Below are positions 58,399-63,050 of a stretch of 64,000 nt of DNA, piece after piece (within the stretch, counting starts at the first letter, position 1; every line of letters begins with the position of its first letter). Position numbers and translations under genes: made by a program. Source of the DNA: Shewanella maritima (lineage in GTDB: Bacteria; Pseudomonadota; Gammaproteobacteria; Enterobacterales; Shewanellaceae); assembly GCF_004295345.1 (NCBI RefSeq), contig NZ_CP036200.1, forward strand, positions 3,473,501 through 3,537,500, read 5' to 3'. Below the pieces are notes generated by a model. The model had not been told where the DNA came from. It saw only the letters and a list, made by a program, of their open reading frames with translations, and made no database searches.

Positions 58399-58629
58399 TT
58401 ACTTGCTTAGTTCGTGGCAGTCTGCACACTCAGTGATAGTTAGCTCTTCAGAGTGCATTTCCATGTCAACGTCATGCGCGTCAGCTAGGCCGTGACAGTC
58501 GTTACAAGTACCTAGAGTAGCTTCCATCTCTACGTGCTCTTCTAAGTTAACTTCGTGGCATTCCACACAATCAGTCGCGTAAGCTGAACCAGTAAAAGCA
58601 AGTGCAGCAATTAGGGCTAAATATTTCAT
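58399..58629 (-). CDS. Small tri-haem c-type cytochrome
   Basis: A 76-residue periplasmic protein. A signal peptide MKYLALIAALAFTGSAYA leads to three CxxCH haem sites: CVECH, CNDCH and CADCH. Three further His residues (LEEHVEM, ADAHDVD, MEMHSEE) fit bis-His ligation of all three haems. Shewanella's well-known CctA/STC has four haems in ~91 residues, so this is a smaller relative. The mature protein is very acidic. It should carry electrons in the periplasm to anaerobic reductases. Its promoter region is unusually long (437 bases). Confidence 0.88.
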   Translation of the reverse strand: MKYLALIAALAFTGSAYATDCVECHEVNLEEHVEMEATLGTCNDCHGLADAHDVDMEMHSEELTITECADCHELSK

Positions 58630-59065: not shown

Positions 59066-62000
59066 TTATTTTAGCGCTGTACCTGCGCTCGAATCTGCAT
59101 TTGCCGCATTAGCCGTTGAAATTGTACAGCTTGCGCCTTGTGGCTCAGCAATCATGTCTGAACTGATATTAGTATCGCACTCCCAGTCAATTAGGCTGGT
59201 GTTACCTGATACATTTGGCACAAAGGTAATTTGCTTTTGACTACCAAAATCATCTGCTAGCTCAACGACTAAATGGCTGCGCTCTGACAGGTAAATACTG
59301 TCTACCATAGGGTGAGCTTTAAAGTAGTTTACTGGTAGTACAATCTTATCTGCTGGTTTAGGTAAGCGGTTCTTAAACAGATAAAACTCAGATACTGACA
59401 TCTTTGCTAGCTCAGCCATATCAACGATAGCGTCGAGCTGTTCAGTCATATCAATTGCATTTGGGTTTACTTCAGGAATAGCTGCAATTTGAGGATTGGC
59501 ATTGGTTGCAGCTGTTTCGATAGCAAGAAGGTTATCGATTGCATCCGGCTGTTGTTCAGTGCCATTTTCTGCATTAGCAATAATCTGGGTTACCGGCTCT
59601 TCGAATGCTACCGGTGCAGTTGAGATAGGAGCGAGCTGACTGGCATCTTCTGTTGTCACCTGGGTATTGTCTACTAGCACTTCATCAGAGGTTTGATTGG
59701 CAGACTCGTCAGTCTCTGGTGCTTGGGCAACGAGCGTTTCAGTATTCTCAGCTACGCTAGTTTCAACTTCTGTTCCAACGTTAGCCTCGATATCTGCTAT
59801 CTGTGTATCAACAACGTCCTGTGTATCAACAACCTCAGCTTGGATGGTTTGAGTATCAACAACAGTATTTGTACTGGTTTCTTCTAGTGCTTGACCCGTT
59901 ACCTCAGCCGCCGTAACTAGTGCTGGCTCGTCAATTGGATTTGCTACAGCAGAGGCTCCAACGGTCTCTGAAGGTGTTTGGGAAGCTAATGCTAGTTGAT
60001 CTTGTGTGTCATTAGAATCCATGCTTTCTGGAGTCGCTTGGGCATCAACTTCAACTGGGTTGATATTGGTACTAGCCGCCGTAACAAGTTGTTCTTCCTG
60101 CTTAACTGATTGCTCTGCGACTGCAATGTTTGACTGTTTTTCAGCAGGTTGTGTGGCTTGTGTCGATATTTCTGTTTCATCAACGTTTATTAATTCAACT
60201 TGGTTGTTATTGGCGACTAGCTCATCAGTAGCTAACTCTTTTACAACATCGGTTTGCATATCTGTTTGCGTAGTTTGCGCCACGCTTTCTTGAGTACTGA
60301 TAGCCTCCGTTGAGTTAACAATTTCTTCGGAGTCAACGATTTCTGCGGCGTCAGCGAGTACGACCGGCTCATTAGAAACAGTCGCTTCAACAGGTTGCAT
60401 ATCTAAGCTAGGCGATTCTTTTGCTACCTTGCTATCTGCGTTGAGATCAGCGACTTGTTGTGCGTCATCATCTAGCTGTGGAGGTTGCGCCATAGCAATA
60501 GCATTTTGAGTAATGTCATCTACATTGTCTTGTTCAGTAATTGCAATCTGAATCACTTCACTACTTGTATCTGGTTCCTGCGAATTTACAGTATGCTCAG
60601 ATGCTATCGCCGCGGCATTGCCTCCATTATTTACGACCTTTGAAACATCACTAGCCACTGAAACGTCATTAACCTCAGCAAGTGTATTTGGCTTATCTAA
60701 ATGTACTTGAACGTCGTTGAGCTGAGTATCTGCAGGGTTATTACTCTTACTAGCCGTACTAGCTTGCTTGTTAGTTGCTGCTAATTGCGGTGAAGCGGGC
60801 TCATCGTCAGCCATAAAATCATTAAATGCGATGACTAGCTTGTCAAAAAAGCCAGGCTCTTTCACCTGAGCGCGTGGCGCTTGTGTTGATACTTCTTTGA
60901 TGCTCTGCGTTGTAGCTTTGGCGACAACTTGATCTTGTTCAGACTCCACGTCTGCAGCAGTCTGTTGATTTATATGTGATTCAACTGAAGTTTCAGGAAC
61001 GTTTGATTCATTCGCCGCGACTAACTCTGTTGCTTGCTCTGGGATAAGTTTTTCAGGGGTGGCGGGTTCAGTAGTGGCTAGTTCGGTCGTCACTAGTTCA
61101 GTAGCTAGCTCAAGGTTCTCTGTATCGACGCCTGTCGCTGAAGCTTGTATGGCTTCCACCTTGGCCGTAGGGGCTTCATCTGCACTTTGTGGGATTGTTG
61201 CGTCAGTTATTAGATAATCGTTAGCCAACAGAGTGTTGTCTAATTGCTTGTCAGTTATTTGCGTGCCTTCTGCAGTAACTTCAATCGAGGTGTCTTCTGA
61301 TAAGGTTGCTTTAGCGGTTGTTGAGGCTAGCTCTGCTGCGGACTCTGTTGCTAGGAGCTCTGTTGCTACTGGCTTAGTATCATTGCTACCAGTAACACTG
61401 TTAGTGAGATTATTAGCTGAATCAACCTTGTTTTCAATCGTCGCGGCTTCGGCTAACAGTGTTTGCGTTTCTTGTTGTGCTTCGATTTGGTTGTCGCTAA
61501 CTTCTGCAGCTGTATGATTCGCACTGGCCTCAGCAATCAAAGTTTCTGCAACAGGAACTACAACTGTTTCTAGCTCAGCAATGGCAGGTTCAGTATCTTT
61601 GATTTCAGTATCTGGCTTGTTGTTTTCGTCGGCTTCAACCGCGCTTTGTGCTGTTGATGCTAACTCTGTGAGTCGTACTGGCTCTGGGGTTGGCTCGCTC
61701 GCAGCGGCCTCATTTAGCGTTTGAGTTTCACTTACTGCTTGAGCTTTATTTGCTACTGAATTCGATTGCGCAGCAATAACGTTAACTTGCTCATTGTCAT
61801 TTTGATTAGTAGTAAGTTCACGTGCGTCTTGGTATTCAAATTCGAGGTTTTGCTCTGGCGTATCAGCAGTGCTCGCCAGCTGCGCTTCTTCAGCTGCAGT
61901 CGCATGCGGCTCTGGTGTAGCTTCTGGAATGAGTTCTGCTACTGTAGTGTAAGCCGATTCAGCGCCATCAACAATTGAGTCTTTAATACCCGCGTAATCG

Positions 62001-62398
62001 ACTTTGGCTATACGAGTAAATAGCGAAGGCTCATTAAGATCACGCGGCTCTTCATCTTCTACGAAGGCGACTTTGACTACCACAACGACTATTAACACAC
62101 CGGAAATGTTAATTAGCCACTCGTTGATACCACGCTCTTTGGTTTTTGGTTTTTTCTTTGGCGCAGGGGTGCGGACGATGTTTTTGTGCTTGGCGATAAC
62201 GCTGCGAGCAATCTCTTCGATCTCTTGGCGCTCTAGGATAGTGATTTCATCAAGTGCTTCGATGTAATCAAGGGGGAGCTCGATATTGTCAGGATGTTTG
62301 TTGCCATGACGTAGTGCGTCAATTTCCAAGACGCGATTTTTAATCTCTTCAACTATCAAATTTTGTTGATTAGTTGTGTTGGCACTAGTTGCATTCAT
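59066..62398 (-). CDS. Membrane-anchored acidic tether with C-terminal pilin-like domain
   Basis: About 1,110 residues from ATG 62398. Residues ~1–85 are cytoplasmic, with KKKPKTKERG before one span (INISGVLIVVVVVKVAF, ~97–114). The acidic EDEEPRD that follows gives an N-in topology, so the rest is periplasmic. From ~120 to ~980 runs a low-complexity Glu/Ala/Thr/Val/Asn/Gln-rich region with many AEL/ATE/VAA patterns, likely disordered. The last ~120 residues resemble the globular part of a type IV pilin: KMSVSEFYLFKNRLPKPADK, a beta-sheet region (SHLVVELADDF), then IDWECDTNI and a second Cys at GASC, the D-region disulfide pattern. It lacks a pilin N-terminal methylation site. A TTG start at 62413 is less likely. 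No known family named. Confidence 0.75.
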   Translation of the reverse strand: MNATSANTTNQQNLIVEEIKNRVLEIDALRHGNKHPDNIELPLDYIEALDEITILERQEIEEIARSVIAKHKNIVRTPAPKKKPKTKERGINEWLINISGVLIVVVVVKVAFVEDEEPRDLNEPSLFTRIAKVDYAGIKDSIVDGAESAYTTVAELIPEATPEPHATAAEEAQLASTADTPEQNLEFEYQDARELTTNQNDNEQVNVIAAQSNSVANKAQAVSETQTLNEAAASEPTPEPVRLTELASTAQSAVEADENNKPDTEIKDTEPAIAELETVVVPVAETLIAEASANHTAAEVSDNQIEAQQETQTLLAEAATIENKVDSANNLTNSVTGSNDTKPVATELLATESAAELASTTAKATLSEDTSIEVTAEGTQITDKQLDNTLLANDYLITDATIPQSADEAPTAKVEAIQASATGVDTENLELATELVTTELATTEPATPEKLIPEQATELVAANESNVPETSVESHINQQTAADVESEQDQVVAKATTQSIKEVSTQAPRAQVKEPGFFDKLVIAFNDFMADDEPASPQLAATNKQASTASKSNNPADTQLNDVQVHLDKPNTLAEVNDVSVASDVSKVVNNGGNAAAIASEHTVNSQEPDTSSEVIQIAITEQDNVDDITQNAIAMAQPPQLDDDAQQVADLNADSKVAKESPSLDMQPVEATVSNEPVVLADAAEIVDSEEIVNSTEAISTQESVAQTTQTDMQTDVVKELATDELVANNNQVELINVDETEISTQATQPAEKQSNIAVAEQSVKQEEQLVTAASTNINPVEVDAQATPESMDSNDTQDQLALASQTPSETVGASAVANPIDEPALVTAAEVTGQALEETSTNTVVDTQTIQAEVVDTQDVVDTQIADIEANVGTEVETSVAENTETLVAQAPETDESANQTSDEVLVDNTQVTTEDASQLAPISTAPVAFEEPVTQIIANAENGTEQQPDAIDNLLAIETAATNANPQIAAIPEVNPNAIDMTEQLDAIVDMAELAKMSVSEFYLFKNRLPKPADKIVLPVNYFKAHPMVDSIYLSERSHLVVELADDFGSQKQITFVPNVSGNTSLIDWECDTNISSDMIAEPQGASCTISTANAANADSSAGTALK

Positions 62399-63050
62399 TT
62401 GTTTTTCCGGCAAATGTTGTCGAATTCTCAGGCGATGTTCGAGTTAGGGTTATCGTCTTAAAAAAACGGCTTTGCAAAGACTCAACTTGGGCATGATTAC
62501 TTATCCCTAAGCAATGATTGTTGCTGGTCATTTTCATAACAGCTATGCAGCGAGTTGCTGTTTTTATGCTGTTATTTCAAACTCTAGAATGCTAAATGCA
62601 ATGTCAAAATTGGTGCGTAACACCTGATATTGTTATTTGTTGTTATAGCAGACAAAGTAAATGATTTTCTTATGTCTTTGATTCCCAATAAAAGGACAAG
62701 ATACATTAGTTTTGTTCAATTTATCAAATTTTTTTAACAACTCGTTATCATTTGTGTATCACCAGGATTTTCATCAAGTAATTCAATGTATTGCGTTTTT
62801 GATATTTATACAGGCAAACAGTCAAAGCTGGCTGGTGTTAACTTGGTCTTACGAAGTGCTGTTTGAGTAAATTTATGCCGCGAACAAAAAGCATGCAGAC
62901 TAAAAAATGACTACGGGAGGGTTGTACAAGATAATTTGAAAAGGTTGCTTGTGAGTATGCTAAATGCTAAATGCTAAAGGTAAAAAGGATAGAGCGTTCA
63001 GGCTGGGCTATATGTAAGCAACAGCCTAAACGCAATAACTTAATCTGTGG
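62399..63050. other. 650-base gap without recognised gene
   Basis: AT-rich; no ORF of credible composition and no strong terminator. It presumably includes the promoter of the large gene on the minus strand and the 3' end of the helicase transcript. Confidence 0.5.

Follow-up and report, generated by a model that had tools for sequence, protein, structure and literature searches.

The 64,000-nucleotide window analysed here (Shewanella maritima contig NZ_CP036200.1, positions 3,473,501 to 3,537,500) carries on its reverse strand a gene whose product, hereafter the window protein, consists of an N-terminal head with a basic flank, one hydrophobic span, an acidic linker and a C-terminal domain resembling a type IVa pilin (hereafter, the tail) (Table 1). 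Use of a TTG codon at 62413 as an alternative start would add five residues. In a low-confidence structure model of a short form, the head folds into three helices (predicted local distance difference test [pLDDT] 77–88 within the head). Outside the span, the best 19-residue hydrophobicity window reaches 1.34, compared to the cut-off of 1.6 that we set for a hydrophobic span. Net charge is +8 in the 20 residues before the span and -1 in the 20 residues after it, and because the basic flank precedes the span, the head is predicted to lie inside and the tail outside (N-in/C-out). The ends of the linker and tail were set by us from the span and the Pilin match; linker residues 120–984 (865 amino acids) have a net charge of -135 and contain no cysteine or tryptophan, and the two cysteines of the tail are the only ones in the protein. 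An initial annotation, made from the DNA letters, had described a cytoplasmic head, a single span and a long acidic linker, and this description holds, with the location of the head being a prediction. We regard the overall anatomy (head, span, linker, and leaderless pilin-like tail) as close to certain.

Table 1 Features of the window protein gene (window positions) and of motif-less Pilin domains at other loci (locus positions)
Feature	Position	Strand	Remarks
Whole coding sequence, 1110 amino acids	59066..62398	(-)	ATG at 62398, stop 59066-59068
N-terminal head, residues 1-89	62132..62398	(-)	Mixed charge, predicted cytoplasmic
Single hydrophobic span, residues 90-116	62051..62131	(-)	KKKPKTKER directly before
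Acidic low-complexity linker, residues 117-984	59447..62050	(-)	About 868 residues
Short amphipathic-looking linker segment, residues 516-530	60809..60853	(-)	GFFDKLVIAFNDFMA, pattern written by eye
PISTAP, residues 924-929	59612..59629	(-)	In the linker
C-terminal type IVa pilin-like domain (tail), residues 985-1110	59069..59446	(-)	
Cys1074	59177..59179	(-)	Of the W-x-C motif
Cys1091	59126..59128	(-)	17 residues beyond Cys1074
Motif-less Pilin domains over cut-off: M48 peptidase, two ankyrin-repeat proteins, DUF805, DUF4124	L180 3590-4870; L174 4805-7345; L175 4498-6315; L187 3710-4558; L186 1888-2541		

The AlphaFold2 model of the tail (pLDDT 77.8; predicted template modelling score [pTM] 0.73) contains one long helix and four strands, and when it was compared with solved structures, rows 1–27 were all pilins or pilus-like filaments. 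The tail profile search also picks up canonical pilins. By prediction, the tail has a type IVa pilin fold, including the globular alpha-beta domain expected of a pilin, which bears out the pilin-like pattern noticed by the initial annotation, and no non-pilin fold was obtained. The C-terminal cysteine pair of type IV pilins, which may form a disulfide here, is likewise present, with a spacing of 17 residues in 12 of 12 Shewanella tails and of 15, 17, 17, 17, and 19 residues in five relatives from other genera.

The defining feature of type IV pilins is a class III signal, i.e., a hydrophilic leader ending in Gly or Ala and followed by a hydrophobic tract with Glu5 (PMC4471445), and the hydrophobic alpha-1N helix is described as the main interface of filament assembly (PMC4471445, PMC8179133). 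Although the tail shares its predicted fold, C-terminal cysteine pair, W-x-C motif, and profile matches with type IVa major pilins (PilA/PilE; PF00114), the window protein contains no class III motif as defined by our pattern, its gene is absent from the 25 N_methyl matches (24 over the cut-off) in its own genome, and no hydrophobic alpha-1N helix is continuous with the globular domain, given that the only span sits about 868 residues before it. Moreover, the domain ends a 1110-residue protein and scores below the Pfam cut-off. The absence of a prepilin leader and of a hydrophobic pilin helix, noted from the outset, was thus confirmed. Modular pilins (Streptococcus sanguinis PilB/PilC, PMC8179133; CpaL, PMC12607857) are similar in that a pilin module is joined to non-pilin sequence. 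As described in these sources, however, they begin with a class III signal (in CpaL, a potential prepilin peptidase site) and carry the pilin module at the N-terminus and the extra domain after it, whereas in the window protein this order is reversed, with the pilin domain at the C-terminus, and the signal is missing. The window protein falls outside the definitions of both type IV pilins and modular pilins.

To describe the distribution of the gene, 129 genomes of the genus were compared: the head profile matched ten and the tail profile nine of them, including the genome of the window in both cases. Across the order, the head was found in 7 of 394 genomes, all within one of 114 genera. The named carriers are S. 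gaetbuli, S. aestuarii, S. holmiensis, S. subflava, S. intestini, Shewanella sp. WXL01, S. japonica, and Shewanella sp. 1_MG-2023. The protein of strain WXL01 (P0001) is near-identical to the window protein and is annotated only as a hypothetical protein; all relatives with a named source are annotated as hypothetical or uncharacterised. Eight genomes of the genus encode long forms with linkers of several hundred residues each, two of which have a reading frame broken inside the linker (G105, L012 9795-12877; G119, L016 9818-11939). The order of head, span, linker, and tail was found again in seven unbroken long forms (694 to 1160 amino acids) and in the near-identical copy.

Six other long forms share 69–80% identity with the window protein over residues 1–75 and 41–74% over the tail, compared to 9–20% over the linker. 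The ratio of nonsynonymous (dN) to synonymous (dS) substitution rates is 0.03–0.13 for the head (six pairs) and 0.05–0.22 for the tail (five pairs; the sixth is saturated), and the linker of one close pair has a dS of 0.87 and a dN of 0.34. Judged from these comparisons, the head and tail look constrained and the linker fast-changing, so that the region taken for a pilin domain is conserved among Shewanella homologues. Pairs involving the two broken genes give ratios of 0.07–0.22, which leaves the breaks undated. Within the linker, all 10 of 10 long forms contain one or two copies of PIST[AE]P, which is absent from both short Shewanella forms, and for each of seven long forms tested it arose in at most 4 of 5000 composition shuffles. 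Because the long forms share ancestry, this pattern speaks for retention and not for independent origin. By the pattern written by eye, the segment GFFDKLVIAFNDFMA has an apparent counterpart in 8 of 9 other long forms, and none was found in G032.

The same order of parts also occurs with much shorter linkers. In a 312-residue protein of S. japonica (P0004), the tail begins about 50 residues past the span, and in G346, G204, G670, and G888 the Pilin match starts about 26–32 residues past it. Both the S. japonica protein and HII17_10470 of Thalassotalea sp. M1531 (P0006) resemble the window protein in having an N-terminal head, a single span, and a C-terminal pilin domain, but their linkers measure about 50 and about 28 residues, respectively, compared to 868; the short head of the Thalassotalea protein has no evident similarity to that of the window protein (by eye). 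Two same-layout relatives, the Thalassotalea one included, pass the Pfam Pilin cut-off with 37.4 and 37.1 bits, and two further ones clear it with 22.2 and 23.6 bits. From these sequences, the 868-residue tether appears to be an elaboration of one clade.

Pilin domains lacking the class III motif are not limited to this layout. Using profile A6, which includes two short non-Shewanella forms, 41 of 369 genomes across the class of the window matched, as did 8 of 295 in the family of G346; the search was confined to this class, hence the origin of all motif-less loci from one class carries no weight. Among the 54 listed matches, 43 loci were read (38 returned and 5 fetched later): a class III motif precedes the domain in 24 and is missing in 19, the window gene being one of the latter. 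A Pfam scan of ten motif-less proteins placed nine over the Pilin cut-off, namely an M48 peptidase, two proteins in which ankyrin repeats follow the pilin domain, one DUF805 membrane protein, one DUF4124 protein, two proteins about 720 amino acids long, and the short anchored proteins of G670 and G888, with the tenth (G636) giving no match. Of the 19 loci without the motif, six or seven have a pilin-like alpha-1 stretch (e.g., VAIPAYQDY) before the domain (by eye), and this apparent remnant hints at descent of the motif-less domains from real pilins. Two further arrangements were seen at these and other loci. Proteins of about 720–800 amino acids, several with a lipobox-like start (by eye), have a hydrophobic helix and a pilin domain at their C-terminal end (L170; L171 3127-5301; L172; L179; L182 2661-4832); two of this set were included in the Pfam scan. 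A three-gene cassette is present in three genomes of two other families (L112 7125-9104, L116 8062-10073, L117 10906-12868); its genes encode a single-span protein with no class III motif and with a C-terminal end that looks pilin-like by eye (no Pfam match in the two scanned), a short protein resembling PilC/GspF (of two scanned, one gave a weak T2SSF match), and a canonical pilin.

The initial annotation knew of no described protein with the layout of the window protein. None was found described in the parts of the literature searched (open-licence PubMed Central, several queries being narrow), but the claim has to be qualified, as uncharacterised relatives share the layout and the motif-less pilin domain also occurs on several unrelated types of protein. 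We class the window protein as a variant use of the pilin domain, leaderless and C-terminal on a long tether.

Because same-layout relatives occur in other bacteria, we favour a role as a membrane-held pilin look-alike, which is a likelier identity for this protein than a part of the pilus. As a more specific role, we tentatively propose, at rather less than even probability, a non-polymerising pilin mimic that docks on pilus components near the inner membrane; use of the domain outside pili is nearly as likely. According to this proposal, the predicted cytoplasmic head, the span, and the acidic linker of about 868 residues would carry the pilin-fold tail into the periplasm, where it would dock on pilins or pilus-assembly proteins and thereby hold the head near the pilus base. 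The tail may retain the lateral contact faces of pilins and, because the hydrophobic alpha-1N helix is absent, would be unable to enter a filament. The binding site would lie close to the inner membrane, since relatives manage with about 30 linker residues. A slack linker of such length should not pass on strain or conformation, therefore recruitment, in which partners of the head and partners of the tail would be brought together, fits better than mechanical sensing.

A single N-terminal span followed by a long extended periplasmic region is found in TonB, TolA, and similar inner-membrane proteins as well as in the window protein, which differs from them in the predicted pilin fold of its C-terminal domain. 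With respect to docking, there are partial precedents. TfpY is reported as likely to interact with pilins and as not detected in assembled pili, and the TfpY/TfpX/TfpZ/FimB group has a periplasmic C-terminal domain on a membrane protein (PMC11841053). This is a comparison of how the proteins may work: the group has three predicted spans compared to one in the window protein, and no pilin domain is mentioned in the excerpts of that paper. PilS provides a precedent for the sensing of membrane pilins (PMC8088505).

Several results weigh against docking on pilus components. Foldseek returned no match to the tail model at E ≤ 0.001. The Pfam Pilin model (PF00114) gives the tail alone 16 bits, below the curated cut-off of 22, finds no match in the whole window protein at E ≤ 1, and matches 4 of 9 tails with a best E of 0.022. 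In a profile comparison, the match between the tail and 30 PilA-type pilins was weak (probability 4%, P 0.01). Orientation is also less clear in two relatives: the S. japonica protein and P0005 have a flank charge of 0 before the span and of +2 and +1, respectively, after it, which does not favour N-in. The tenth genome with the head (G122, L039 9261-9710) encodes a 149-residue protein consisting of head and span with no linker, and no tail was seen in three forward frames over 1500 bases from the gene start. Around the gene, about 16–20 kbp read by eye in nine carriers included no recognised pilus gene. Shared with the neighbourhood in the window are what we take to be a DEAD-box-like helicase, upstream in four carriers (46–50% identity) and less similar in a fifth (36%), and, in one carrier, presumably an aldo/keto-reductase-like gene. 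Each of the 12 genomes that have the gene or a relative gives a PilQ match (11 of them over the cut-off); because 79 of 82 genomes of the genus pass this cut-off too, PilQ presence is uninformative on a pilus link. Since the head occurs in 10 of 129 genomes while nearly all of those sampled have PilQ, the window protein is not generally needed for pili. In the genome of the window, pilQ is split over two reading frames (467- and 200-residue open reading frames; G000:C1:2937302-2938533, L130 1002-3046), and the 11 other genomes compared with it all have pilQ over the family cut-off. If real, this break could leave the window protein without a working secretin; it could also be a sequencing error. 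The gene adjoining the canonical pilA of this genome, presumably a polytopic sulfatase/phosphotransferase look-alike, also appears to be split into two open reading frames (L131 3656-5622), which makes indel errors in this assembly plausible. Downstream of the window gene, positions 58399-58629 (-) encode a 76-residue protein that begins with a signal-like stretch and contains three CxxCH motifs, likely a small multihaem cytochrome.

The strongest competitor, which we consider a serious one at a little over one chance in three, is that the pilin fold has been co-opted for a function outside pili, serving more generally in binding or as a structural domain in the periplasm, with the tethered tail binding another component of the envelope. 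Motif-less Pilin domains on an M48 peptidase and on ankyrin-repeat, DUF805, DUF4124, and 720-residue proteins suggest that the fold is freely reused, and the neighbourhood without recognised pilus genes is consistent with this, as is the failure of the head profile to match 119 of 129 genomes of the genus, where most of those sampled have PilQ. Against it, six or seven of the 19 loci without the motif still show the pilin-like alpha-1 stretch before the domain (by eye), and no alternative ligand is suggested by any data. A broader form of the docking proposal is that leaderless, non-polymerising pilin domains constitute a docking module that is widespread but has gone unrecognised, borne by peptidases, ankyrin scaffolds, small membrane proteins, and the Shewanella tether, which would bring activities to type IV pili or take a census of membrane pilins; we consider this rather unlikely.

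The initial annotation had suggested that the protein could extend over the periplasm to present its pilin-like module to a pilus, pseudopilus, or outer-membrane partner; we weighed this reading, with a secretin as a further candidate partner, as the reason for the long linker. All eight genomes of the genus with long forms have linkers of several hundred residues (two broken), PIST[AE]P is kept throughout the long forms, and by our polymer-scaling estimate 868 disordered residues would span about 30 nm, exceeding the periplasm. However, the roughly 26–50 residues between span and domain in same-order relatives are too few to reach the outer membrane, and the unbroken long forms vary widely in length with little linker identity to the window protein. 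Crossing is for this reason unlikely as the core function, and the job shared by the domains may be possible next to the inner membrane. A periplasm-crossing role is unproven and is not the common denominator of the relatives; we consider it improbable. It is far less probable still that the tail is cleaved off and incorporated into a filament as an atypical minor pilin, given that the fold (predicted) and cysteine pair are pilin-like but our pattern detected no class III motif and the tail has no hydrophobic helix adjoining it. An accidental fusion, assembly artefact, or decaying pseudogene, for which the broken orthologues in G105 and G119 and at least one other broken gene (pilQ) in this assembly could be cited, is hardly credible given the recurrence of the part order in seven unbroken long forms and the near-identical copy, and the low dN/dS in head and tail.

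Because the signal peptide is what defines type IV pilins, surveys keyed to this signal miss leaderless pilin-domain proteins; the Pfam Pilin model nonetheless detects several. Should the tails bind pilus parts, as our preferred proposal holds, these proteins would be natural non-polymerising pilins, useful as probes of pilin recognition in the membrane ahead of assembly, and they would offer a route for bringing other enzymes to pili. If the tails do not bind pilus parts, they would document reuse of the pilin fold outside filaments.
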